From Pedosphaera sp. (lineage in GTDB: Bacteria > Verrucomicrobiota > Verrucomicrobiia > Limisphaerales > UBA1100): a stretch of DNA of 36,546 nucleotides. The translations under genes were made by a program, and so were the position numbers. The notes under the pieces are model-generated. The model saw only the letters and a list, made by a program, of their open reading frames with translations. It was not told where the DNA came from and did no database searches. Positions 1,461 to 23,944 of the stretch are shown one piece after another; the first letter of the stretch is position 1, and each line of letters starts with the position of its first letter. The DNA lies in contig SIAW01000017.1 in the NCBI GenBank assembly GCA_009695465.1, positions 1 to 36,546 on the forward strand, given 5' to 3'.

Positions 1461-4400
1461 ATGTCCCTCACGATGACTTCGCGTCCATCGGCGAATCCAT
1501 TTCTGAACACACTGTGCCTGCACGTGGCTGTGGCCGCGGGACTCATCGCCGCGAGTGTGCTGAGTGCCGCGACCGTCAAGCTCAACGGCCACAACTTCAC
1601 GCTGCCCGATGGATTGGAGATCGAGTTGATTGCCGCCGCGCCGCTGGTCAATCGCCCGATCTCCATCGCATTCGATGAGCGCGGCCGGCTCTACGCCACC
1701 GACTCGGCGGGGATTAGCGACAAAGCCGAGAGACAACTGGAGACCAAACCGCACCGCATCGTCCGTCTCGAGGACACTGATGGCGATGGGCGCTTCGACA
1801 AGTCCGTCGTGTTCGCCGACAAGATGATGTTCCCCGAAGGCGCGATGTTTTACGAAGGCTCACTGTACGTCGCCGCACCGCCGCAGATTTGGAAACTCAC
1901 CGACACCGACAACGACGGCGTGGCTGACAAACGTGAGGTGTGGTTCGATGGCAAAACGCTGACCGGCTGCGCGAACGATTTGCACGGGCCGTTCCTTGGC
2001 CGCGACGGATGGATTTACTGGGCCAAAGGCGCCTTCGCGCAGCAGAGTTACACGCTGCCCAACGGCAAGCCATTCACCACGCGCGCCTCGCATCTTTTCC
2101 GCGCGCGCCCCGACGGCACGGGCATCGAGCCCGTGATGACCGGCGGCATGGATAACCCAGTGGACATCGCTTTTAGCGCGACAGGCGAGCGGTTTTTCAG
2201 CACGACCTTTTTCCAGAATCCCGCCGGCGGCAAACGCGACGGTCTGATTCACGCCATCTACGGCGGCGTTTATGGCAAGCAACACGATGTTCTCAGCGGG
2301 CATGTGCGGACCGGTGAGTTGATGCCCGTGCTGGCGCACATGGGGGCGGCTGCGCCGTGCGGGTTGACCACTTACGATTCGCGCGTGATGGGTGAGGAGT
2401 GGCGCGGCAATCTGCTCGCCTGCTATTTTAATCTGCGCAAGGTCGTGCGCCACCAACTCGTGCCTGATGGCGCGACGTTCAAAACGAAGGACAGCGACTT
2501 GCTCGCCAGCGATCACGTGGACTTTCATCCCACCGATGTGATCGAGGACGCCGATGGCAGCGTGATCATCGTGGACACCGGCGGCTGGTACAAAATCTGT
2601 TGCCCCACTTCGCAACTCGCCAAGCCCGATGTGCTCGGCGGCATCTATCGCGTGCGCAAAATCGGCGCTCCAAAACTCATCGACCCTCGCGGACTCAAAC
2701 TCGACTGGGCAAAACTGACGCCGACCAGTTTGGTGACGTTGCTTGACGATGATCGGCTCTACGTCCAGCAACAAGCGATCCACGAACTGGGCCTGCGCGG
2801 TGCGCGCGCGGTTCCGATGTTGCGCGATGTGTTCGAGGGCAACACACCGGAACGCCAGCAGATCAACGCGATCTGGGCGTTGACGCGCATTCCTGGCGAG
2901 GCTGCGCGCCAGCCTGCGCGGATGGCGGTTCGTTTCAAGAACGCCAACGTGCGTCACGCCGCGATTCATTCGGCGGGACTCTGGCGCGATGGCGGTGCGG
3001 TCGAAGCGTTGGTTCCTGCACTGGGCCGCGATGCCGGTGCGACATCGCGTGCCGCTGCCGAGGCGCTCGGGCGCATCGGCGACGTGCAAGCCGTGCAGGG
3101 TTTGCTCAGCGCGGCGCAACGTTTGCCGCAACAACCCGAAAGCGATGCGCGGCGAATCTTGGAGCACTCTCTCATCTACGCATTGATCGAGATGAACGAC
3201 CCGGCTGCGGTGCGCGCCGAACTGGATCGCGTCCTGCCCGCCGCGCGTCGTGAAAGCGTGATCAAACTCACTGGTGAGACCGATGTGACGGCCGCTTCAC
3301 TTTGGTGCGCGGCGTTGATGGCGCTGGATCAAATGAACGGGGGCGGATTGAAACCCGAAGAAGTGGTGCCACTGCTCAACAGCGCGCATCCATCGTTGCG
3401 CCGCACGGCGGCGTGGATTGTCGCGCACCGGCCCGAGTGGGGCGATGCGCTCACCGGCTATTTTCAGCAACGACTGAGCAGCGGCCCAGCCGATGCGGAG
3501 TCGCGCGCGGAATTGGAATCGCAGCTCGCGCGATTGGCCACCGCACCGGCCGTGCAGGAATTATTGGCAGCCAGTCTGCGCGACGAGCGCGTTGCGGACC
3601 CATCACGACTACTCGTCCTGCGCGCGATGGCAGCGGCGGAGATCAAAGAAACGCCCGCGCGTTGGCAGGTGGAATTGGCACAGCTACTCGCGCAGAGCAA
3701 GCACGAGATGTTGCGCCAAACGGTGGCCACCGTCCGCGCGTTGCCGCAGCCCAAACAAGGCCATGCTGAGTTGACCGCCGCATTGCTCAAAGTGGGTCGT
3801 GGCGAAGCACCGGCGCAGGTGCGATTGGACGCACTGGCCGCTGCGCCGGCGTTGGACAACGTGGAAGCCGCGCTCTTTCAGTTTCTCACGCTGAACCTAG
3901 TTGGAGAGCAGCCGATGCTGACACGGGCGGCGGCGGCCAGCGTGTTGGCCAAGGCCAAGCTCGCGCCGGAACAACAGATGGCATTGGCCACGCGGATGAA
4001 AACTGTTGGCGCACTGGAAGCGCCAAGATTGTTGCCGGCCTTCGAGCGCGGCACGACCGAAGCGCTGGGGATGGCACTGGTGTCGGCGTTAAAAGATTCG
4101 CTGGGCTTGCGCGGGCTTCGCGTGGATTTGATCCAGCCGCTGCTGGCGAAGTATCCGCAGTCGGTGCGCGATGCGGGCGCGCCGTTGATCCAATCGCTCA
4201 ACACCGACGCGGCGGCGCAGACGGCGCGGCTGGAGGAATTGCTGGCGCAGACTAAAGGCGGCGATGTGCGCCGCGGGCAAGTGGTTTTTCTCAGCGCCAA
4301 GGCCGCGTGTTCCGCCTGTCATGCGCAGGGTTATCTGGGCGGCCGATTGGGGCCGGACCTCACCAATCTGGGCAAGGTGCGCACGGAGCGCGATCTGCTC

Positions 4401-4676
4401 GAAGCCATCATCTTCCCCAGCGCCAGCTTCGTGCGCAGCTACGAGTCGTTCATGGTCATTACCAAATCGGGCGAGGATATCACCGGCATCATCCGCAAAG
4501 ACGCGCCGGAGGAAGTCGTGCTGGCGACGGGGCCGGAGACGGAGGTGCGCATCCCACGCGCACAGATTATCGGAATGCGGCCGGGTGCGGTGAGCGTCAT
4601 GCCTGCGGGAATGGACAGCGTGTTGACGCGGCAGGAACTGGCCGACTTGCTGGCCTTCCTGAAGGCGCCGCGCTGA
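1461..4676 (+). CDS. PVC-type membrane-bound dehydrogenase / HEAT-repeat / cytochrome c (CxxCH) protein
   Basis: ATG at 1461 precedes a signal-like N-terminus. Beta-propeller-like dehydrogenase region (LPDGLEIELIAAAPLVNRPISIAFDERGRLYATDSAG), HEAT-like middle, and a C-terminal heme motif CSACH followed by GPDLTNLGKVRTERDLLEAIIFPSASFVRSYESF. Confidence 0.85.
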   Translation: MSLTMTSRPSANPFLNTLCLHVAVAAGLIAASVLSAATVKLNGHNFTLPDGLEIELIAAAPLVNRPISIAFDERGRLYATDSAGISDKAERQLETKPHRIVRLEDTDGDGRFDKSVVFADKMMFPEGAMFYEGSLYVAAPPQIWKLTDTDNDGVADKREVWFDGKTLTGCANDLHGPFLGRDGWIYWAKGAFAQQSYTLPNGKPFTTRASHLFRARPDGTGIEPVMTGGMDNPVDIAFSATGERFFSTTFFQNPAGGKRDGLIHAIYGGVYGKQHDVLSGHVRTGELMPVLAHMGAAAPCGLTTYDSRVMGEEWRGNLLACYFNLRKVVRHQLVPDGATFKTKDSDLLASDHVDFHPTDVIEDADGSVIIVDTGGWYKICCPTSQLAKPDVLGGIYRVRKIGAPKLIDPRGLKLDWAKLTPTSLVTLLDDDRLYVQQQAIHELGLRGARAVPMLRDVFEGNTPERQQINAIWALTRIPGEAARQPARMAVRFKNANVRHAAIHSAGLWRDGGAVEALVPALGRDAGATSRAAAEALGRIGDVQAVQGLLSAAQRLPQQPESDARRILEHSLIYALIEMNDPAAVRAELDRVLPAARRESVIKLTGETDVTAASLWCAALMALDQMNGGGLKPEEVVPLLNSAHPSLRRTAAWIVAHRPEWGDALTGYFQQRLSSGPADAESRAELESQLARLATAPAVQELLAASLRDERVADPSRLLVLRAMAAAEIKETPARWQVELAQLLAQSKHEMLRQTVATVRALPQPKQGHAELTAALLKVGRGEAPAQVRLDALAAAPALDNVEAALFQFLTLNLVGEQPMLTRAAAASVLAKAKLAPEQQMALATRMKTVGALEAPRLLPAFERGTTEALGMALVSALKDSLGLRGLRVDLIQPLLAKYPQSVRDAGAPLIQSLNTDAAAQTARLEELLAQTKGGDVRRGQVVFLSAKAACSACHAQGYLGGRLGPDLTNLGKVRTERDLLEAIIFPSASFVRSYESFMVITKSGEDITGIIRKDAPEEVVLATGPETEVRIPRAQIIGMRPGAVSVMPAGMDSVLTRQELADLLAFLKAPR

Positions 4677-4786
4677 GTTTTGTTTGTGGCCGCTGCGTGG
4701 GCTTGCCCGGTGAATTTCCTCTGCTGTTCTGCAGCCAGCTTGCACGCGGGCCGCTGGTGCCGTAGATTTCCCGCAACGACTTCAAG

Positions 4787-5863
4787 GTGCGTTTCATTGA
4801 ACTAATCAAGGGGATGATGGCGGGCGGCGGCGAACTCAAAGCCGCTGCGCGTTTCCGCTTGGGCCGCTGCATTGATCGCGGCGGCATGGGCACGGTGTAC
4901 GAAGCCGAGCAACAGGGCGCATACGGTTTCACCAAGAAGGTCGCGATCAAGTTGCTGCAACCGGTCACCACGGGGCATGCCGACGCCACGCGCGCGTTCA
5001 TCGGCGAGGCGCGGCTGGTGGCGCGGCTGGTGCATCCCAACATCGCGCAGGTGTATAATCTGGGCCGCACCAAGAACCACATCTTCATCGTGATGGAGCT
5101 GGTGCACGGCATGAACCTGCAGGATCTGCTCGCGTTGGTCGCCCGGCAGGGGATGCGCCTGCCGCGGGACTTGGCCGTGTACATCATCAACCGCGCGCTG
5201 CGCGGGTTGGCGTACGCGCACGGCTTGAAGGATGATGCGGGCCACGCGCTGGGCTTGGTGCATCGCGATGTGCATCTGCGCAACATTCTGGTCAGCTACG
5301 AGGGCGACGTGAAGTTGACGGACTTCGGCATCGCCTGCGCGCGGGGATTTCTGCCGGCAGACAATCCCGATGTGATTGTCGGCTCGCCGGATTTCATGAG
5401 TCCCGAGCAGATCAGCGGCGAGGCGATTGATCATCGGTCCGACATCTTCTCCACGGGCGTGGTGCTTTCCACGCTGCTGCTCAACGTCAATCCGTTCGCT
5501 GGTGCCAGCGTGGAGGAGATGCGCCAGCACCTCACGCAACGCGCGCTGCCGGATTTCCGGCGGATGAATCCGGAGATTGACGAGGACCTCGACCGCATCT
5601 TGCGCACGGCGCTCGCGCGGCAGGCGGCACATCGTTATGCCAGCGCCTACGACATGCTCTCCGATGTGGAGCACTATCTTTATGCGCGCGAGCACGGGCC
5701 TACGGCTGACCGTCTGCGGCGGTTTCTAGTGGAGATCACGACCACGCCGCCCAAGACGCGCAACATCACGCGCACCCGCACGAAGGTCATCCCCAAGCCA
5801 ACGGCAAAAACCACAGCGAAGGCGGCACCCCCCATCGTGGTGCCCGCAAAGAAGCGCGGATAG
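4787..5863 (+). CDS. Serine/threonine protein kinase, no obvious TM segment, basic C-terminal tail (GTG start at 4787, or ATG at 4814)
   Basis: Gly loop GRCIDRGGMGTVYEA, VAIK lysine, HRDVHLRN catalytic loop, DFGIA, SPDFMSPEQ. Confidence 0.88.
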   Translation: MRFIELIKGMMAGGGELKAAARFRLGRCIDRGGMGTVYEAEQQGAYGFTKKVAIKLLQPVTTGHADATRAFIGEARLVARLVHPNIAQVYNLGRTKNHIFIVMELVHGMNLQDLLALVARQGMRLPRDLAVYIINRALRGLAYAHGLKDDAGHALGLVHRDVHLRNILVSYEGDVKLTDFGIACARGFLPADNPDVIVGSPDFMSPEQISGEAIDHRSDIFSTGVVLSTLLLNVNPFAGASVEEMRQHLTQRALPDFRRMNPEIDEDLDRILRTALARQAAHRYASAYDMLSDVEHYLYAREHGPTADRLRRFLVEITTTPPKTRNITRTRTKVIPKPTAKTTAKAAPPIVVPAKKRG

Positions 5864-6951: not shown

Positions 6952-7605
6952 CTAAAATTCGCAGGGCAACTCCACCGCGCGGGCGAGTCGGCGCAGATAC
7001 TCCGCGCGCGCGATGTCCACCGCACCGAGCTGGCGGGTGATGGGCGTGAGTTCCTGAATGTCGAAGAGCGTGAAGCCGCGCTCGCGCAGATGCTGCACCA
7101 GATGCCACAACGCCAATTTGGAAGCGTCGGGCTGACGGTGAAACATAGATTCGCCCGCGAACAAACCGCCAATGGCCACGCCATAAACGCCGCCCACCAA
7201 CGTCTCGCCGTCCCAACACTCCACACTGTGCGCGTGGCCGGCGCGGTGCAGCGCGGTGTACGCAGCGATGAACTCCGGCGCGATCCACGTCTTCTTGCGC
7301 GCCGCACAGGATTCGATCACCGCAGCGAACGCGCGGTTGCGAGTGAGCGTGAAATGCCCGCGCCGCTGCGTCCGTTCCAAACTGCGCGACGCGTGAAACT
7401 GATCCAGCTCGAAAATAGCGCGTGGATCGGGCGACCACCACGTCAGCGGCTTGGCGCTCCACGGAAAAATCCCGCTGCGATAAGCCAGCTGCAGGCGCGC
7501 AATGGAAAGATCGCCGCCGATGGCGATGAGGCCCTCATTGAGATCGTCGCCTCGCGCGGCCTGCACGTCGGGAAACCAAAGGCGCTCATCCAATCTGGCA
7601 ATCAT
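6952..7605 (-). CDS. aat: Leucyl/phenylalanyl-tRNA--protein transferase
   Basis: [57 protein letters not shown] and [21 protein letters not shown] are Aat hallmarks; start at MIARLDE. Confidence 0.93.
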
Positions 7606-7637
7606 GGCGCGAACGGGGCTGCCGGCACGCGGGCCGG

Positions 7638-8126
7638 TCAGTCTGTTGGGTGCAGGATTTCCAGCAACTGCTGCTGCAAGGCGCCGCACAGTTCGATGGA
7701 CAACATATCCAGCGCATTTTTCTTGGACAGATTTTCGACCGACTGATAGTGGCCGTCCTCTCGTTGCTGCGGATAGCCTAGTCGCGCCCAACTGCCCATG
7801 CGGATGTCGTTCAACACCTGCAAGAGCCATTCCACCTCGTCGTCGCCCAGCGAGAGCAGCGCTCCGTCCTCGTCCTCGGTGAACCGCGAAGCGTCCTCCA
7901 GAAAAGTTTGCACAGCCTGCCGGTGCTGTTGCCGCTGTTTGTCGTGTGCCTCCACCAACAACTGGCTCGCGTGATTCAGTTTCGCCGCGTGGGCTTCGTC
8001 CTTCGTCAGGCGATGAAATTCCGGCGGCAACAACGGATAGCGCGGCAGGACGGCCAGCATCAGCATCTTCTCCTGCGGCAAGAGGCGCAGCACCCAGCGT
8101 CCGCGCGCGCGGCGTTCCAGTTTCAT
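7638..8126 (-). CDS. DUF2017-like protein (small acidic/helical protein downstream of clpS)
   Basis: 162-aa ORF overlapping the clpS stop by ATGA. Position next to clpS and composition resemble DUF2017; family call is by context. Confidence 0.6.
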   Translation of the reverse strand: MKLERRARGRWVLRLLPQEKMLMLAVLPRYPLLPPEFHRLTKDEAHAAKLNHASQLLVEAHDKQRQQHRQAVQTFLEDASRFTEDEDGALLSLGDDEVEWLLQVLNDIRMGSWARLGYPQQREDGHYQSVENLSKKNALDMLSIELCGALQQQLLEILHPTD

Positions 8127-8425
8127 TCGTCGCGCTCCATCGTGGCGGTCAATCCATAACTCTGCAGGCGATGCACATAATGCTCGGCGTGCTCCAGCCC
8201 GGCGCGGTGCAGCAGGCTCTTTCCCTGCTGATGCACTTGCAACATGTGATGCTTCGCCTTGGCTTGCGGCCAGCCAAACACCGTCATGAACACGTGCGTG
8301 ACGTAGTCCATCAAGTTCACCGGATCGTCCCAGCAGATCACCAGATAGCCCGGCTCCAACGCCGCTTGAGTGGCGCTGCGGGTTTCCTGTTCCGGCAGAA
8401 CAAGCGGGACTGCGGTTTCGGCCAT
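8123..8425 (-). CDS. clpS: ATP-dependent Clp protease adaptor ClpS
   Basis: YLVICWDDPVNLMDYVTHVFMTVFGWPQAKAKHHMLQVHQQGKSLLHRAGLEHAEHYVHRLQSYGLTATME matches the ClpS core (DDxxN...YV...VH..G). Confidence 0.9.
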   Translation of the reverse strand: MAETAVPLVLPEQETRSATQAALEPGYLVICWDDPVNLMDYVTHVFMTVFGWPQAKAKHHMLQVHQQGKSLLHRAGLEHAEHYVHRLQSYGLTATMERDE

Positions 8426-8490
8426 GGAGAAATTATACACGAGGACGAGGGCGTCGTAAATATCCGTGCCAGCCAAAGCTGCGGGCGCGG

Positions 8491-9465
8491 TCAGATCTGG
8501 AAGTCAGGTTTTTTCTTGTCCAGCTTGTTGAGCACGCGCATGTCCAAACCGTCGTACACGACGAGCGAATGCGGCGCGACGCTGTCCATGATGAAGACGT
8601 TGCCGCCGATGGTGCTGTGCGCGCCGATCACCGTCTCGCCGCCGAGGATGGTCGCGCCGGGATAGATCGTCACATAATCCTCGAGGGTCGGATGCCGCTG
8701 CTGCCCGCGCAATTGCTGGCCGCCGGAAGTGGATTTGGCGCCCAACGTCACGCCGTGATACAGCTTCACGTGATTGCCGATGCGCGTGGTCTCGCCGATG
8801 ACCGTGCCGGTGCCGTGATCAATAAAGAAATGCGAGCCGATGGTTGCGCCCGGATGCAAATCCATCCCCGTGCGTTCGTGCGCCCACTCCGTCATGATGC
8901 GCGGCACCAGCGCGACGTGTTCTTGATAGAGCACATGCGCCATTCGCTGCACCGAGATGGCCTCGATGAACGGATACGACAGGATGATCTCCTCGCGGCT
9001 CTTGGCGGCAGGATCGCCATCGAACGCCGCGTCCACGTCGGTCTTGAGCAGATCGCGGATGTCCGGCAACTTCGCAAGCAGGCCCAACGCCAGCGCACTC
9101 GCTGCAGCGCGCGGGTTGCTCTTGGCCGCAGCGTCCGGCGGATCGTACTCGATGCTCTTGCAGAACTCGTCCTCCAACCGGCCCAGCACCGAGTCCATCA
9201 ACAGCGCCGTCTCCATCTTCAACTCGGAAGAATGGATGGTCTTGCTATCGAAATAACCGGGGAATAGCAGACGCAATAGATCCGCAGTGATCGCCACGAT
9301 GGCGCTCTTCGGGGAAAGATTTTTGCCATCGAGATAATTGATGCCGCCCACGCGCGCGTACGACGCCATCAAATGATCCGTTAGCTCGGTGACTTTCACG
9401 GCGGCAGTAAACCGCAGCGACTGCCCGAAGGCAAGCGCCTCAGCCTGCGCGGTGCCACGCGACAT
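8491..9465 (-). CDS. cysE: Serine O-acetyltransferase
   Basis: DLHPGATIGSHFFIDHGTGTVIGETTRIGNHVKLYHGVTLGAKS left-handed beta-helix hexapeptides. The annotated start overlaps waaF by 26 bp, so the true start may be internal. Confidence 0.88.
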   Translation of the reverse strand: MSRGTAQAEALAFGQSLRFTAAVKVTELTDHLMASYARVGGINYLDGKNLSPKSAIVAITADLLRLLFPGYFDSKTIHSSELKMETALLMDSVLGRLEDEFCKSIEYDPPDAAAKSNPRAAASALALGLLAKLPDIRDLLKTDVDAAFDGDPAAKSREEIILSYPFIEAISVQRMAHVLYQEHVALVPRIMTEWAHERTGMDLHPGATIGSHFFIDHGTGTVIGETTRIGNHVKLYHGVTLGAKSTSGGQQLRGQQRHPTLEDYVTIYPGATILGGETVIGAHSTIGGNVFIMDSVAPHSLVVYDGLDMRVLNKLDKKKPDFQI

Positions 9466-10534
9466 CCACCGCCGCCGTGACTTGCTCCACCGTGATGCCC
9501 ATCATGCAACGCAGGTCCACTGGGCATTCGCGCAGGAAACAGGGCGAGCACGGTGCCTGCGCGCGGATCAGTTGATGGCGCGTGTCATCGGGCAAACCCG
9601 GCCCCGTCAAATCCGCGCTCGTGCTGCCAAAGGGCACGACCACCGCTGCGCCCGCCGCTGCCGCCAGATGCATCGGGCCAGTGTCATTGGTCAACACCAC
9701 GCGACACACTGCCAGTGCGGCGACCAATTGCCGCAACGTGGTGCGGCCTGCAAGGTTCGTCGCCGTGCCCGGAGGGAGCGCCGCGGTGAGCGTCGCCGCA
9801 ACTTCCGCATCGCGTGCCCCGCCGAAGATCACGCAGTGACAACCGTGACGTCGCAGGATTTCTTGCGCGACCGCCGCGAAGCGATCGGCTGGCCAGCGCT
9901 TGGCTGGGCCGTATTCCGCGCCCGGCACCAAGCCCAGCAACGGAGTTGCCAGTGGCAGGACAAAGTCAGATTTAATGCGGGCCAATTCCTCCGCGGGAAC
10001 CGCCAGCCGCGGCGGCAGCAGTTCGGCACGCGCGCCCAGCGCCGAGGCGAGATGCAGGTAGTGCCACGCGTGATGGGACTGCGCGGGGAAACGATCGGGC
10101 GCGGCACCGTTTGCGATGCGCGTGTGGACTTCTGCTGGCGTGCGTTTGCGCATCGGCACTGCGCCGGGAAAATCAGGCAGGGCTTCTGTTAAAAACAAAC
10201 GCCGCCATGCGCCGGCACGGCCGATGCGGCGAGGAATGCGGGCCAGCCAACACTCCAGCGCTGAACGCGGGGAGTTGGGCAGCACCAAGGCGGTGTCGCA
10301 GTCCAGCGCACGCAGACGGCGGCCAACGCGCCAGACCGTTTCATCGGCCGCAAAAGGGATCACCGCATCCACGGCCGGTTGCAGCGTCCACAGGTCGGCC
10401 AACTTTTGATGCGTCAACACGCTGATGCGCGTGTGGGGCAGGGCTTCGCGCAGACGCTGCAGGGCGGGCATGGCCATCACGGCGTCGCCCAGCCAATTCA
10501 CACTGCGCACGAGCAGATGGCGCGAGGCGGTCAT
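9440..10534 (-). CDS. waaF: Lipopolysaccharide heptosyltransferase II (glycosyltransferase family 9)
   Basis: LLVRSVNWLGDAVMAMPALQRLREALP; GLVPGAEYGPAKRWPADRFAAVA; LTNDTGPMHLAAAAG. Confidence 0.88.
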   Translation of the reverse strand: MTASRHLLVRSVNWLGDAVMAMPALQRLREALPHTRISVLTHQKLADLWTLQPAVDAVIPFAADETVWRVGRRLRALDCDTALVLPNSPRSALECWLARIPRRIGRAGAWRRLFLTEALPDFPGAVPMRKRTPAEVHTRIANGAAPDRFPAQSHHAWHYLHLASALGARAELLPPRLAVPAEELARIKSDFVLPLATPLLGLVPGAEYGPAKRWPADRFAAVAQEILRRHGCHCVIFGGARDAEVAATLTAALPPGTATNLAGRTTLRQLVAALAVCRVVLTNDTGPMHLAAAAGAAVVVPFGSTSADLTGPGLPDDTRHQLIRAQAPCSPCFLRECPVDLRCMMGITVEQVTAAVDVAWHRAG

Positions 10535-18660: not shown

Positions 18661-20073
18661 ATGGATAAACTGCTGCTCATTGATGACGAGGCGGACGTAC
18701 GCTATTCCTTCGAGCGCATTTTTGGTGGCGATTCCTCGCTGAGCCTGCGCTGCGCGGGCAGCGGCGAGGAAGCGTTGCAGATCATCCCGCAGTGGCGGCC
18801 CGATCTGGTGTTGATGGACATCCGCATGGCCGGCCTCAACGGCATTGAGACGCTCAAACGTCTGCGCGAGTCCGATCCCAAAACGCCCGTCATTCTGATG
18901 ACCGCTTTTGGCACGACGCAGATGGCCATTCAGGCGATGAAACATGGCGCGTACGATTACGTGCTCAAGCCCTTCGAGGTGCCGCGCCTCAAGCAACTGG
19001 TCGCCGACGCCCTGCACGCGGCGCGCACGATGCGGCAGGTGGTCTCCTACCAGCCGCTGCTCGACCGCGAGGATTACGATCTGGGCATCGTGGGTCGCAG
19101 CCTGGCGATGCAGGAGGTGTTCAAACTCATCGGTCAACTCGCCGCCTCCGACGTCACCGCACTCATCACCGGCGAGAGCGGCACGGGCAAAGAGCTGGTC
19201 GCGCGCGCCATCTACCATCACAGCGACCGCAGCAAACGCCCGTTTCTGGCCATCAACTGCGCGGCCATCCCCGAGGCGTTGCTGGAGAGTGAACTTTTTG
19301 GACACGAGAAAGGCGCCTTCACTGGTGCGGCTACGCAGCGCATCGGCAAGTTTGAGCAGTCGCACGGCGGCACACTTTTTCTGGATGAGATTGGCGACAT
19401 GAGTCCGGCCACGCAGACCAAAATCCTGCGCGTGTTGCAGGATGGCGTGTTCGAGCGCGTCGGTGGCGGCCAGCCCGTGCGCGTGGACGTGCGCATCATC
19501 GCCGCCACCAACAAGCCGCTGGAGCAGGCCGTCGCGGCGCGGCAATTCCGCGAGGATTTATTTTATCGGCTCAACGTCGTGCGCGTGCGACTGCCTGCCC
19601 TGCGCGAACGCGCGGACGACATCCCGCTGTTGCTCGATTATTTTTTGGCGAAGGCCGGCCCGCGCGGGCACGTGCCCAAATCCATCCATCCGCTGGCACT
19701 GGAGGCATTGCAGCGGCATCACTGGCCCGGCAACGTTCGCGAGCTGGAGAACGCCGTGCAACGGGCGATGGTGATCGCAAAGGGCGACGTGATTCGCGCG
19801 GAGGATTTGCCCGCCGAGATTGGCAAGCCCGCCCAGTCTGTGCCCGTGGCACACGACGACATTGGTTCACTGTCGAACAAACTCTTCGAGTGGGCGCGCG
19901 GCAGCAAATCTTTCAGGGTCATCGCGGCGGTCGAGCGCGAGCTGATTGCCAATGCGCTGCGCGAGACCGACGGCAATCAAGTGCAGGCGGCCAAGCTGCT
20001 GGGCATCACGCGCGCCACGTTGCGCAAACGGATCGAGAAGTACGGCATCAAGCGCGAGACTTCTATCCAGTGA
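18661..20073 (+). CDS. Sigma54-dependent response regulator (NtrC family: receiver, AAA+, Fis-type HTH)
   Basis: LLIDDEADVRYSFERIF, DLVLMDIRMAG, GESGTGKELVARAIYHHS, GAFTGA, FLDEIGDMSPATQTKILRVLQDG, HHWPGNVRELENAVQRAM, HTH NQVQAAKLLGITRATLRKRIEKYGI. Confidence 0.95.
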   Translation: MDKLLLIDDEADVRYSFERIFGGDSSLSLRCAGSGEEALQIIPQWRPDLVLMDIRMAGLNGIETLKRLRESDPKTPVILMTAFGTTQMAIQAMKHGAYDYVLKPFEVPRLKQLVADALHAARTMRQVVSYQPLLDREDYDLGIVGRSLAMQEVFKLIGQLAASDVTALITGESGTGKELVARAIYHHSDRSKRPFLAINCAAIPEALLESELFGHEKGAFTGAATQRIGKFEQSHGGTLFLDEIGDMSPATQTKILRVLQDGVFERVGGGQPVRVDVRIIAATNKPLEQAVAARQFREDLFYRLNVVRVRLPALRERADDIPLLLDYFLAKAGPRGHVPKSIHPLALEALQRHHWPGNVRELENAVQRAMVIAKGDVIRAEDLPAEIGKPAQSVPVAHDDIGSLSNKLFEWARGSKSFRVIAAVERELIANALRETDGNQVQAAKLLGITRATLRKRIEKYGIKRETSIQ

Positions 20074-20096: not shown

Positions 20097-21119
20097 CTAC
20101 TTGGGGAACAGCGGCGATTGGTGCACGCGCTGCTGGCCGTTTTCATCGGTGATCAACCGCAGTCCGTATCGCGCGCCCAATCGCTCCATGCTTTTTGCGG
20201 TACCCAATACGCTGCACGCCGTCGCCAGTGCGTCGGCTTCCAGACACGTCGGCGCAGTGACGGTGCACGAGAGCACGGTGCGCACGGGCCAGCCGGTGCG
20301 CGGATCCAGCAAGTGCCCGTAGCGCACGCCGGCAATCTCAAAAAAGTTTTCGTAGTTGCCGGAGGTGGACAGCGCGCCGCCGCGCAGTGCGATGGACACG
20401 CGCTGGCCGCGTTTGTCGGGGTCTTCAATCTGCACGATCCATTGTTCCGCACCGGGAGGAAGCCCGAGCACGCGGAGGTCGCCGCCGGCCTTGACCATCG
20501 CGGAGGTGACGCCCAGCGCGCGCAGTCGTTCCACGGCGCGATCCACGGCGTAGCCTTTGCCAAAGCCGCCGGGATCAATGGACATGTCCGCTTTGGCGAA
20601 ACGGATGCTGCGGGCGGTGGCGTTGAACTCCACGTGGTGATGGCCCACGCGCAACAGGGCGGCGCGCAGTTCCGCCTCGGTGGGGATGCGGTAGTTTTCT
20701 TTTTTGATGAAGCCCCAAAGATCCACGAGTGGCCGGACGGTGGGATCAAATGCGCCCTCGGATTGGGCGGCGAGCGCGAAGGCTTTTTGCAGCACATCAA
20801 AAAGGGCGGGGCTGATAACGGTGGACTGCGTGGAGGCGGATTGGTTGAGTTGGCTGAGTTCGCTGTCGAGGCGATGGATGCTCAGCAACCGATCCACGGC
20901 GCGAACTTCATCGAAGGCGGCGTTGACCGCTGCGTTCAGCGCAACGCGATCGCCACCGTGGACAGTGATGGTGACGAGCGTGCCCAGCAGCGGCTGGCTG
21001 CGTGTGAGACGTTCAGCGTCCGCCGGCGGATGGGGTGCCGTTTGGCAGGACGGCTGGCAGGCCAACAGCCACGCGAGGGCGCACCACCAGATCGTAGCTG
21101 GCCAGCACGCGTTTGACAC
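20097..21119 (-). CDS. apbE: FAD:protein FMN transferase, ApbE family, putative lipoprotein (GTG start overlapping upstream gene)
   Basis: QPLLGTLVTITVHG, ALAAQSEGAFDPTVRPLVDLWGF, DPGGFGKGYAVDRAVERLRALGVTSAMVKAGGDLRVLG, GHLLDPRTGWPV; lipobox-like LLAC near the N-terminus. Confidence 0.92.
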   Translation of the reverse strand: MSNACWPATIWWCALAWLLACQPSCQTAPHPPADAERLTRSQPLLGTLVTITVHGGDRVALNAAVNAAFDEVRAVDRLLSIHRLDSELSQLNQSASTQSTVISPALFDVLQKAFALAAQSEGAFDPTVRPLVDLWGFIKKENYRIPTEAELRAALLRVGHHHVEFNATARSIRFAKADMSIDPGGFGKGYAVDRAVERLRALGVTSAMVKAGGDLRVLGLPPGAEQWIVQIEDPDKRGQRVSIALRGGALSTSGNYENFFEIAGVRYGHLLDPRTGWPVRTVLSCTVTAPTCLEADALATACSVLGTAKSMERLGARYGLRLITDENGQQRVHQSPLFPK

Positions 21120-21645
21120 CTTCGGTGACGTTGCGGCAGGAGATGGTGGCGCCGCTGATGTTGTAGATGTCGTCATTGAAACGCAGTTTGTCCGCAGCGG
21201 TTTTGCCGGCGAATTGCGCGCGCCATTTGGTGCTGCGCACTTCGTGGCCGTAGCTTTCGCGGTACTCCAGAATCTCCACTTGCCGCACGTGCCCGTCCAG
21301 CCCAATGGCCACGGCGTAATCAATCTGCTCGTGTTTGCCCCGCACGCGATCCAAGGCGAGCACGCCCATCGGCCGGCCCGCTTTCAGTGCCACGCAATAG
21401 GGAATGCCGTGCAACGGCACGGCAATGCCGCTGTCCTTTTCGATGGCGCGGGTTTGCTCGGCGGTGAAGGTTTCCACGCGGCGCTCAAAAGTGTCGGCCT
21501 CGGGGAAACAGAGTTTCTGCGCTTGGGCAATGGTCAGATAACGTTCCGCGCGCAGGCTGCCCGCTGCGCAAAGACAAAGCAGTGCGGCGCCCCAAGTGAC
21601 GGTTCGTTTGATGTGCGAAAGGAGGGGCATGATGGCGCGGATCAA
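21013..21645 (-). CDS. Exported FMN-binding domain protein (RnfG/NqrC-like), predicted flavinylated
   Basis: Signal peptide (VTWGAALLCLCAAGSLRAE); flavinylation-type motif NDDIYNISGATISCRNVTEGVKRVL; VAIGLDGHVRQVEILEYRESYGHEV. Confidence 0.88.
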   Translation of the reverse strand: MIRAIMPLLSHIKRTVTWGAALLCLCAAGSLRAERYLTIAQAQKLCFPEADTFERRVETFTAEQTRAIEKDSGIAVPLHGIPYCVALKAGRPMGVLALDRVRGKHEQIDYAVAIGLDGHVRQVEILEYRESYGHEVRSTKWRAQFAGKTAADKLRFNDDIYNISGATISCRNVTEGVKRVLASYDLVVRPRVAVGLPAVLPNGTPSAGGR

Positions 21646-22913
21646 AAATCAAAACCGATGCCGATGGAAAAGATGCTGTCGCTGTTCTTGCTCAAGCACG
21701 CGGTGTAGTCGGATTTGAGCACGACGTGGTCGCTGAGAAACCAAGCGAATCCGCCGGTGAGATAGTCTTTGTTGCTGGAATAGGTTTTGGTCAATCCGGA
21801 GGCGTACGCGCCCGAGGTGGTGTGGATGTCGGCGTAGCGCACGAAGGGCACCAAGCGCATCGCGCTGCCTTTGCCGTGCCGCCATGATTCGGGCCACACA
21901 TCGTAGGCGGCCTCGGCGTACCAGCCGTACATGCGGTTGCCCACGTCGTTGGTGGTGCTGGCATCGTTGTTGGCGGAGAGATTTTCTTTGTTGCCAAAGT
22001 GCCACATGGCGAAGTCGCCGCGCAATTCCAGGCGCTTGGCCCAGCGCGGACGGTAGCTGGCCTCCACATCCCACGCGCCGGCGGTGACGGAGCGGTCGAG
22101 GGAACCGCCAAATTCGGTGACGTACCCCGAGGCGCTGGCCTCCAATCCCGGGATGCCGGTGTAAGTGAGCTTGGCGGAGTAGCCCAGCTCGTCGGTGGTG
22201 TCGTCCTTGTTGTAGAGGCGCGGACGCGCCTTGCGCATGCCGGCGTCGCCGGTGATAAAATTGCTGGTCTGCTCCGTGATGCCAGTGCTGACGAGCGTTT
22301 CGTATTTCAGCCCCTCACCGATGTTGCCCCACACGCCGCCCAAGCTGCCTTCCATCCACGTGCTGGGAATGATCTCCTGATACAAGCGCGGGCGATCCAC
22401 CGAGTAGAACGTCGTGGGTTCATGGCGCTGATTGACGCGGCCCATCGGGATGAGCGAGATGCCAGGGGAGCGGATGTTGAAATGTTTGCTCAGAAGGAAG
22501 TCCGCATAGAACTGCTCGATCTCCAGTTCGCCATTAAAAAATCGCCCGGTGCTGTCGCCCTGCGCGCCGCCGTGCTCAATCTCAATCTCGGAGTTGAAGA
22601 TGATCCAGTCGTTCACCTTGAAACTGGGGATGAGCACAAAACGGTTTGGGTCGAAGTAATTGCCGTCCGCTCCCTTCGTCCACTTGTATTTGGACTCGCC
22701 GTAGAACCTGAAATTGAGACCGGACTCCGGCTTCTTCTGCAGCCCGGCGAAAGGGTCGCCCGTCGCAGGCGCTTTCTTGATCTGCTCCACCTCCAATTGC
22801 ATGGCGCGGATCTGCGCCTCCAATTGCTTCACACGATCCTCAACCGTCTGCGCAAACAACGCAGTGTGACAAACGGTCAAAGCCAGCAGTCCAACGACGA
22901 AATTGAGATTCAT
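21642..22913 (-). CDS. Outer-membrane porin (OprO/P-like beta barrel with N-terminal coiled coil)
   Basis: MNLNFVVGLLALTVCHTALFAQ signal; VEDRVKQLEAQIRAMQLEVEQI coiled coil; alternating amphipathic strands; C-terminal SIGIGFDF ending in aromatic F. Confidence 0.8.
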   Translation of the reverse strand: MNLNFVVGLLALTVCHTALFAQTVEDRVKQLEAQIRAMQLEVEQIKKAPATGDPFAGLQKKPESGLNFRFYGESKYKWTKGADGNYFDPNRFVLIPSFKVNDWIIFNSEIEIEHGGAQGDSTGRFFNGELEIEQFYADFLLSKHFNIRSPGISLIPMGRVNQRHEPTTFYSVDRPRLYQEIIPSTWMEGSLGGVWGNIGEGLKYETLVSTGITEQTSNFITGDAGMRKARPRLYNKDDTTDELGYSAKLTYTGIPGLEASASGYVTEFGGSLDRSVTAGAWDVEASYRPRWAKRLELRGDFAMWHFGNKENLSANNDASTTNDVGNRMYGWYAEAAYDVWPESWRHGKGSAMRLVPFVRYADIHTTSGAYASGLTKTYSSNKDYLTGGFAWFLSDHVVLKSDYTACLSKNSDSIFSIGIGFDF

Positions 22914-22918
22914 TCTCA
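22904..22918. promoter_or_regulatory. Candidate Fur box 1 overlapping the porin start codon
   Basis: TGAGATTCATTCTCA against the Fur-type palindrome TGAGAATNATTCTCA: one mismatch. Confidence 0.6.
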
Positions 22919-22928
22919 CAGGGACGAG

Positions 22929-22957
22929 AATCTGTTGAGAACCATTCTCAGTGTCAA
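22929..22957 (-). promoter_or_regulatory. Candidate porin promoter: -35 TTGACA (22957-22952), 17-nt spacer, weak -10 CAGATT (22934-22929)
   Basis: Minus strand reads TTGACA CTGAGAATGGTTCTCAA CAGATT. Confidence 0.45.
22936..22950. promoter_or_regulatory. Candidate Fur box 2 inside the porin promoter spacer
   Basis: TGAGAACCATTCTCA against TGAGAATNATTCTCA: one mismatch; centre 32 bp from box 1. Confidence 0.65.
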
Positions 22958-23469
22958 TCGCTTTTCTGAAGATTTTTTGCCCAGCACCAAGCCCCGAGCA
23001 AATGCCCAACAAGAACCGCAGGCAGTGCCAAGCCCAGCCAGACATGCCAGCGGATGAGCGTTTGCCGTGCTGCGGGGTCGTGGGAAGCCCCAATCAATTC
23101 CGGATAATAGAGGAACAGACCGGTGAGAATAAGCCCGGCAAACAGCGCCGCCAAGGGCACGCCGCTCCAGACATTCGCCCGCATGCGCCAGCCGCCGGAC
23201 AGATGCGTCTGCCACAGCCAGCCGAACATCGCGCAGAGCAGGGGATTCATCGCGCCATGAACCAGCCGTGCTGCCGTCAGCCAGCCGGACTTGCCATTCG
23301 ACGGCGTCTCGGAGAAGAACGATTGCGGATCGTTTTTGGTGGCGTCGGGTGCGGCCTGCCAAAGGGCCAGTCCAGAAACGAAACTCAGCGCCAGCAGACC
23401 CAGCAACACCCATTGCACGGTGGCCGAGAGGCGCGTGGGACGCCGCGCGGCAGATGCGACCTCGGCCAT
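22954..23469 (-). CDS. Four-TM cytochrome b-like membrane protein (DUF4405/cytochrome b561-like)
   Basis: Four hydrophobic helices; His pairs in RLVHGAMNPLLCAMFGWLWQTHL and RWHVWLGLALPAVLVGHLLG (14-residue spacing) suit heme ligation. Confidence 0.65.
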   Translation of the reverse strand: MAEVASAARRPTRLSATVQWVLLGLLALSFVSGLALWQAAPDATKNDPQSFFSETPSNGKSGWLTAARLVHGAMNPLLCAMFGWLWQTHLSGGWRMRANVWSGVPLAALFAGLILTGLFLYYPELIGASHDPAARQTLIRWHVWLGLALPAVLVGHLLGAWCWAKNLQKSD

Positions 23470-23470
23470 C

Positions 23471-23944
23471 TCAGGAATGCTTGTTGCGGCAGGCCCCGAG
23501 TTTCTTCAACTCATCGCAACTGCCCGTGATGCGCAACTGCTGGCTCTTGATGGCGAACCCCAGCCGGTGCGTGATCTCGTTCTCCAACTGATCGAGCTTG
23601 TCGCTCTCGAACTCCACGATCTTGTCGCAGTCCCCGCAGATGATGTGATTGTGATTGGGATGCTCGGCGTAGTTGGGATCGTACACCTTGTAGTCCTTGC
23701 CAAAATCCATCTCATGCACCAGCCCGTTCTCCGTCAGCAACGGCAGCGTGCGGTACACCGTCGCCCGCGACACCGTGGGGTCATGCTTGCGCGCCATCTC
23801 CAGCAATTGCTCGGCGGTGAAATGCCGGTCGGTGGCAAACACCGCGTCCACAATCGCTTTGCGTTGGGAAGTCAGGCGCAGATTTTTTTGCTCCAGAAAC
23901 TGCAGGAACCTTTCCCGCGCCGCCTGTCTCTCAACTTGAGGCAT
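23471..23944 (-). CDS. fur: Fur family transcriptional regulator
   Basis: FLEQKNLRLTSQRKAIVDAVFATDRHFTAEQLLEMARKHDPTVSRATVYRTLPLLTENGLVHEMDFG; PNHNHIICGDCDKIVEFES; C-terminal Cys pair. Confidence 0.92.
   Translation of the reverse strand: MPQVERQAARERFLQFLEQKNLRLTSQRKAIVDAVFATDRHFTAEQLLEMARKHDPTVSRATVYRTLPLLTENGLVHEMDFGKDYKVYDPNYAEHPNHNHIICGDCDKIVEFESDKLDQLENEITHRLGFAIKSQQLRITGSCDELKKLGACRNKHS

Follow-up and report, generated by a model that had tools for sequence, protein, structure and literature searches.

What would bring a Fur-type metal regulator, a membrane cytochrome, a porin and enzymes of covalent flavin attachment together in one set of genes? The question is raised by a locus of Pedosphaera sp. 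lying in a stretch of DNA of 36,546 nucleotides (the window). A sequence-only reading of this locus had proposed a Fur-linked, flavin-based extracytoplasmic electron transfer serving reductive iron uptake, and the evidence favors it. All five of the minus-strand open reading frames that it listed are present, four of them with a Pfam match:

23471..23944, minus strand: fur, Fur-type metal regulator, 157 aa (Pfam FUR, 6.8e-31)
22954..23469, minus strand: b-type cytochrome-like protein with four transmembrane (TM) helices, 171 aa (Ni_hydr_CYTB, 1.5e-10)
21642..22913, minus strand: porin by predicted fold, 423 aa, without a Pfam or NCBIfam model
21013..21630 (or from a TTG start at 21645), minus strand: exported FMN-binding (RnfG/NqrC-like) protein, 205 aa (FMN_bind, 1.5e-10)
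20097..21119, minus strand: apbE, ApbE FMN transferase (PF02424, 9.8e-83)

The fur stop codon and the 4-TM start codon are joined as TGA-G-ATG, and the GTG start of apbE lies inside the FMN_bind gene (overlap 107 nt), both as described earlier. The porin and FMN_bind genes had been said to overlap as ATGA. The sequence has TTGA instead, and the ATG start of FMN_bind at 21630 leaves an 11-nt gap after the porin gene.

The distribution of these genes was followed in 80 loci chosen solely by porin similarity and spanning about ten phyla. FMN_bind is found beside the porin in 74/80, a small membrane protein in 70/80 and ApbE in 40/80. The module occurs in Verrucomicrobiota, Proteobacteria, Bacteroidota, Acidobacteriota, Planctomycetota, Ignavibacteria, Elusimicrobia, Aquificota and others, and its recurrence in so many genomes places the gene set above chance. 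Cultured carriers include Geothrix fermentans and Gillisia mitskevichiae. The conserved core is the porin with FMN_bind, while fur and this particular cytochrome vary; the porin, formerly regarded as an unusual addition, is hence a core member. The expectation that relatives would share the five-gene order holds for the gene set, which recurs, but the full order was seen only here and in one genome of the same genus. In other relatives the cytochrome or fur is missing, or apbE is not in place. The cytochrome is absent beside the porin in some relatives, and beyond them it is exchanged at other loci for another small 4-TM membrane family that has no Pfam or NCBIfam model.

The porin has a signal peptide, a short coiled coil, about 16 strands and a C-terminal Phe (ending ..GIGFDF), together with a conserved loop (HEPTTFYS..RP..IIPSTW). 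Its AF2 model (pLDDT 86.9) is closest in Foldseek to OmpM1, OmpC, OmpF and OprP (E about 1e-11 to 1e-10), and with a signal peptide, a C-terminal aromatic residue and a barrel in the 16–18-strand range it belongs among the outer-membrane porins. No known porin family could be assigned, as Pfam and NCBIfam gave no convincing match for the window porin or its distant homologues; neither OprB nor SLH domains were matched by Pfam in 12 porin homologues. An MtrB-like wide conduit was rejected, since a barrel of about 16 predicted strands is too narrow to hold a protein. The resemblance to general porins, and the diverse jobs of flavinylated proteins, would suit a flavoprotein engaged in general redox upkeep of the envelope (e.g., reductive repair) with a generic, unrelated porin next to it. 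This explanation is highly unlikely, however, given that porin and FMN_bind stay together in those 74 loci across phyla while other genes are reshuffled, and that acidic/His and loop residues of the porin are invariant.

The exported FMN-binding protein scores 42 bits against PF04205 (cut-off 22) and matches RnfG structures at 2e-4. It carries the SGATIS motif reported before, and GAT.SC is invariant across 12 Verrucomicrobiota sequences; 72/74 FMN_bind homologues have a flavinylation motif. Export, an FMN_bind domain and a [ST]GA[ST]x[ST] motif agree with membership in the flavinylated FMN_bind proteins, and covalent FMN is predicted on the SGATIS threonine. RnfG and NqrC subunits share the domain and an S/TGATxS/T motif, but the protein here lies far under the thresholds of both (rnfG 28.6 bits vs. 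cut-off 102; nqrC 17.4 vs. 144) and is the sole FMN_bind detected in the Pedosphaera genome. A remnant of an Rnf or Nqr complex was rejected on these grounds. ApbE has a lipoprotein-type signal with an LLAC lipobox, read from the sequence, as in exported members of its family, and in two relatives FMN_bind and ApbE are fused in one open reading frame. This fusion and the overlap of the two genes here hint, indirectly, that ApbE would transfer FMN to its neighbor.

The 4-TM protein matches Ni_hydr_CYTB (PF01292) with 41.6 bits (cut-off 30.1). Of the profile matches anticipated earlier, those to FMN_bind, ApbE and PF01292 were obtained, whereas DUF4405 (PF14358) stayed just under its cut-off (25.3 vs. 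26.7 bits), leaving the protein outside that family, and none was found for PepSY or a porin family. The AF2 model (pLDDT 86.7) consists of four long helices, for which Foldseek ranks cytochromes b at the top with weak E-values (0.08 or more). The His pairs noticed in the sequence proved invariant: H71, H89, H142 and H156 are kept in 22 homologues. Score, helices and bis-His candidates agree with PF01292 membership and suggest a heme-binding cytochrome b.

Whether iron controls the module depends on the regulator and its sites. The residues that separate Fur-type from PerR-type regulators are well established, and this protein has the Fur-type YRTL and VEF, along with a FUR domain (PF01475); its best PDB match is Campylobacter jejuni Fur (2e-22). 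Three Fur-family proteins are encoded in the genome, and the window gene alone has Fur-type residues without a Zur-like context. Of the two paralogues, one adjoins a ZIP-like gene; the other has YNCL and FDI residues and adjoins suf genes. As these fit Zur and PerR, respectively, the window gene is left as Fur, and its key residues likewise disfavor a PerR or Zur identity. Two palindromes and a promoter-like hexamer, the former absent from the earlier reading, occupy the gap between the 4-TM and porin genes:

22936..22950, minus strand: Fur-box-like palindrome 1, TGAGAATGGTTCTCA, of 7-1-7 form, matching TGAGAATNNNTCTCA and conserved in relatives
22904..22918, minus strand: Fur-box-like palindrome 2, TGAGAATGAATCTCA, of 7-1-7 form, overlapping the porin start codon (22913)
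22952..22957, minus strand: TTGACA, a -35-type hexamer without mismatch, sharing bases with the stop codon of the 4-TM gene

Palindrome 1 sits in the would-be spacer between this hexamer and a weak -10 element (CAGATT); the consensus scan did not list the TTGACA promoter, which falls below its threshold. The pattern TGAGAATNNNTCTCA has two matches in the whole 2.57 Mb genome, both in the gap before the porin. In 11/15 relatives a palindrome match of at least 11/12 precedes the porin, usually with a second match 25–55 bp away, and the porin-upstream palindromes score above all control windows of those loci. Fur-box-like sites also precede the porin at eight loci from unrelated phyla, and many loci outside Verrucomicrobiota have no recognizable Fur box there. 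Fur may bind at the palindromes, judging by their form and conservation. Copies with two mismatches number 84, against 8 for a reversed control pattern (summed over 11 genomes), but those in the 20 regions inspected lie for the most part inside coding sequence, away from recognized iron genes. As no palindrome box was found at feoAB of the Pedosphaera genome either, the idea of a genome-wide Fur box was dropped.

The neighbors of the module at other loci also point to iron. A FeoB gene is present in five loci, in one of which the 4-TM partner is fused with FeoA in a single open reading frame (9.7e-21) immediately ahead of FeoB, and ferritin adjoins the module in three. The link to iron, first guessed from the adjacency of fur, is therefore backed by conserved palindromes, FeoB/FeoA/ferritin neighbors and Fur-type residues. 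The same evidence bears on two other explanations. Iron could be the signal and not the substrate, with the flavoprotein replacing c-type cytochromes in an iron-sparing, Fur-regulated periplasmic chain that respires under iron limitation to a small acceptor entering through the porin. ApbE/FMN_bind modules do serve many respiratory acceptors, flavin and cytochrome domains interchange (PMC8238504), and Geothrix and Holophagaceae carry the module. Such a chain is nevertheless unlikely, as no terminal reductase recurs among the tallied neighbors, several loci hold FeoB, FeoA or ferritin instead, and the partner in the membrane is predicted to be a heme protein itself. Alternatively, the metal reduced by the flavoprotein might be Cu2+ or some other one, destined for import or for the assembly of a cofactor, and the Fur-family regulator might respond to a metal other than iron. 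Several metals are sensed within the Fur family, and the PepSY_TM protein CrpH is reported to support heme-copper oxidases. The Zur and PerR candidates elsewhere in the genome, the FeoA/FeoB/ferritin partners and the Fur-box-like sites of other phyla make this very unlikely.

A Fur-repressed reductive iron-entry module, made up of porin, periplasmic flavin reduction and FeoB, is the probable function. At low iron, Fur would release the tandem boxes and the porin–FMN_bind–apbE operon would be transcribed. Ferric or weakly chelated iron would then cross the outer membrane via the porin, without TonB. ApbE would join FMN to the SGATIS threonine of the exported protein, and electrons, probably from quinol, would cross the inner membrane via the 4-TM diheme cytochrome b to this flavin, which would reduce Fe3+ to Fe2+ in the periplasm. 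The Fe2+ would be imported by FeoB, of which the genome encodes one, outside the window module. No TonB-receptor plug domain was detected in the Pedosphaera genome, and such plugs are absent from all four sampled genomes of the host family. Several module-bearing Verrucomicrobiota also have TonB receptors, and over the order a tie between the module and the absence of TonB plugs is not significant (5/13 vs. 18/103; Fisher p = 0.13) and is confounded by kinship. If the iron-entry reading is true, it explains how ferric iron enters bacteria that, like this one, have FeoB while no TonB receptor is detected in them, and two families so far without a name, one of porins and one of 4-TM proteins, gain a function. 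More tentatively, and less likely than not, the porin and the covalent flavoprotein may form one physical unit, in which the flavinylated reductase would dock at the periplasmic mouth of the pore or at the coiled-coil stalk, so that iron would be reduced on entry and trapped for FeoB. Such a unit would define a class of iron importers that works without TonB and spans phyla, and that has gone without a name because family models are lacking both for the porin and for the alternative small membrane family.

Related systems share parts of this scheme. In cyanobacteria, iron-selective porins carry inorganic iron (Synechocystis Slr1908), followed by periplasmic reduction and FeoB import (PMC9723758, PMC7676907). 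However, those porins are OprB-like, unlike the one here with its absent OprB/SLH match, and reduction is proposed to be carried out by the terminal oxidase ARTO, with no flavoprotein partner mentioned in the passages covered. The Bradyrhizobium siderophore reductases FsrB and FoxB similarly feed FeoAB by periplasmic Fe3+ reduction, but FsrB is a COG3182 protein whose substrates are siderophores (PMC10760861). For Bradyrhizobium japonicum, the enzyme that reduces inorganic ferric iron is described as unknown (PMC10760861). The module, if the reading is right, is a candidate type of such a periplasmic reductase; it occurs in 19/149 Bradyrhizobium genomes, and at 13% the role of the missing enzyme is not claimed for that copy. 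DUF4405 proteins, for which heme b has been shown (mSystems 2024, PMC11334425), are likewise small membrane cytochromes with four central His encoded beside apbE. They are described as six-TM and often accompany a flavinylated flavodoxin (PMC11334425), whereas here a 4-TM protein, matching Ni_hydr_CYTB better than DUF4405, goes with FMN_bind and a porin.

The PepSY flavinylation clusters, which are Fur-repressed and tied to iron assimilation (Meheust et al., 2021, PMC8238504), also bring ApbE and FMN_bind together with an electron-transfer protein of the membrane, and the role in ferric reduction and assimilation proposed for them is the one proposed here. They differ in the electron-transfer protein, here a 4-TM b561/hydrogenase-type cytochrome, with PepSY absent from the five proteins by Pfam. 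A porin/FMN_bind/Fur system was not found described in the main texts of the mostly open-access literature covered; porins are not mentioned in the searchable text of the flavinylation literature, and the word itself is absent from the text of PMC8238504. The outer-membrane partner differs as well: flavinylation in iron assimilation has so far concerned mainly PepSY clusters, some of them noted with TonB receptors or VIT1 (PMC8238504), while in the module described here the porin is the constant partner.

All five minus-strand genes proposed by the sequence-only reading are present as open reading frames in the window, which is one entire contig of a 2.57-Mb home genome (~91% complete). Among named organisms, those nearest to this genome are Verrucomicrobiota MAGs. 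Four of them belong to Pfam families, and the porin matches no Pfam model.

Genes of the module (window coordinates, strand, gene, assignment)
23944-23471, minus, fur, Pfam FUR
23469-22954, minus, 4-TM protein, Pfam Ni_hydr_CYTB
22913-21642, minus, porin, ORF without a Pfam model
21630-21013, minus, FMN-binding protein, Pfam FMN_bind
21119-20097, minus, apbE, Pfam ApbE

The gene junctions are as described, except that the porin/FMN_bind overlap reads TTGA, not ATGA. The FMN-binding protein has a Sec-type signal peptide and the SGATIS motif, the ApbE N-terminus is a lipoprotein-type signal, and the porin ends in F. A gene for an NtrC-type sigma-54 response regulator (18661-20073; Sigma54_activat, 1.7e-72) is convergent with apbE. 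The home genome contains two more ApbE genes (on contigs C123, L156, and C4, L157) versus one FMN_bind protein found; by eye, each lies near a Gfo/Idh/MocA-like gene.

The neighbourhood was surveyed with the porin as bait, in 116 genomes of the order and in a collection of 84,980 species genomes. The porin occurs in 13 of the 116, home genome counted, and in the 12 relatives it is always adjacent to FMN_bind, with apbE in 8/12, fur in 5/12 and the cytochrome in 4/12 (some contigs end within the locus). The wider collection holds at least 582 porin relatives. In the best 80 of these loci, FMN_bind is adjacent in 74, a small membrane protein in 70, ApbE in 40 and fur in 8; in two of the six loci lacking adjacent FMN_bind, the contig end cuts the porin. 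From these counts, the porin is the constant partner of FMN_bind, and fur and the window-type cytochrome are variable parts. Judged by record title, the 80 loci span Verrucomicrobiota, Alpha-, Gamma- and Deltaproteobacteria, Bacteroidota, Ignavibacteria, Acidobacteriota (Geothrix, Holophagaceae), Planctomycetota, Elusimicrobia, Caldithrix, Aquificota and Dadabacteria. The genes are arranged differently from locus to locus (porin-FMN_bind-apbE-cytochrome in Bradyrhizobium; divergent in the gammaproteobacterial L099 and L104), so the linkage is not merely a frozen inherited segment. The patchy presence of the porin in Bradyrhizobium (19/149 genomes) suggests gain and loss. FMN_bind and ApbE form a single continuous ORF in two relatives (L026/L070, 5371-7077; L027, 8553-10154), which supports joint action of flavin acceptor and transferase.

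Flavinylation-based iron assimilation is already known from Fur-repressed PepSY systems (PMC8238504), as are small apbE-linked cytochromes (DUF4405; PMC11334425) and iron entry via porins in cyanobacteria (PMC7676907, PMC9723758). The word 'porin' has zero uses in the main texts of PMC8238504, PMC11334425 and the 2025 ApbE review PMC12052999, and further literature searches for a porin-flavoprotein pairing found nothing. The pairing may therefore be new within this known type of system, although absence from the papers searched is not proof that it was never described.

The porin model (pLDDT 86.9, 35 sequences) shows a ~16-stranded barrel and, at the N-terminus, a short coiled coil; Foldseek matches it to OmpM1, OmpC, OmpF and OprP (~1e-11 to 1e-10). 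Residues invariant in 35/35 sequences include D88, E109, E111, E113, H114, E133, H164 and E165. Because E109, E111 and E113 alternate along one strand, they probably share a face, plausibly that of the lumen, which suggests a cation path. Four histidines of the 4-TM protein are unchanged across 22 homologues, and the protein's model has four long helices. In structure the model comes closest, with weak E-values, to hydrogenase cytochrome b and to the b-type cytochromes of the b6f and bc1 complexes; the protein would most naturally carry two b hemes. A second 4-TM family (~165-190 aa, conserved HxH) stands in for the cytochrome beside FMN_bind in 40 loci (L056, L059, L062, L065, L066 and 35 more, within L052-L112). 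It matches nothing in Pfam or NCBIfam and is possibly a different membrane electron carrier.

Fur boxes with a 7-1-7 layout have the form TGATAATNATTATCA. The 4-TM/porin gap contains two 15-bp palindromes of this layout, TGAGAATGGTTCTCA and TGAGAATGAATCTCA, whose common pattern has no other copy in the home genome. With at most one mismatch to TGAGAATNATTCTCA, ~0.07-0.4 sites are expected genome-wide from base composition, but this consensus was picked after the sites were seen, and conservation across relatives carries more weight. Of 15 relatives of the porin locus, 11 carry a site scoring at least 11/12 upstream of the porin, mostly with a second site 25-55 bp off, and no control window of those 11 loci equalled the score of that site. 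Fur-box-like sites also lie ahead of the porin in loci from other phyla, namely L059, L062, L065, L075, L099, L104, L109 and L114, and many other loci there have none. Palindrome 1 closely follows a perfect TTGACA, within a would-be promoter spacer, and palindrome 2 overlaps the porin start codon; as the -10 is weak, the porin promoter is only putative. An extra GATTCTC/GAGAATC half-site lies between the palindromes (22919-22935). Locus L023 of genome G030 has a gene for a TonB-dependent receptor (reverse orientation, 3779-5833) that lies upstream of the boxes of the porin operon and is divergent from this operon.

The regulator has the R of YRTL and the E of VEF, and its best match is C. jejuni Fur; PerR has N and D at these positions. 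Together with the conserved palindromes, these residues support the proposed link to iron. The other two Fur-family genes of the home genome look Zur-like (L155, contig C2, directly after a ZIP-like transporter gene) and PerR-like (L154, contig C75, beside suf genes, with PerR-like residues), so that the window fur is probably the sole iron Fur. A general regulon is argued against by the lack of a box at the home feoAB and by the remaining near-matches inspected, none of which lies at a recognised iron gene.

The locus as a whole is quite probably a reductive iron-entry module. When iron is short, Fur would release the operon and the porin would admit ferric iron; electrons from quinol would pass through the cytochrome to a covalently attached flavin, which would reduce the iron for import by FeoB. 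What the analysis shows directly is the gene set, the motifs, the conserved sites and partners and, by prediction, the folds. Neither the home genome nor the three further members of its family that were sampled have a TonB-receptor plug domain. Across the order, module presence is not significantly linked to plug absence (p = 0.13). The home genome has one FeoB, which occurs in 13/13 module genomes of the order and also in most others. The earlier proposal of reductive iron uptake gains support from the conserved Fur-box-like sites and from FeoB, FeoA and ferritin neighbours in other loci. FeoB lies within the module locus in L056, L066, L071, L083 and L097, and L080, L098 and L111 have a ferritin gene after the module. 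In L071, from a Caldithrix MAG, the 4-TM partner and a FeoA domain (PF04023, 9.7e-21) share a single ORF (7077-7904), immediately followed by FeoB (7886-10033), an arrangement that ties the module directly to ferrous iron transport.
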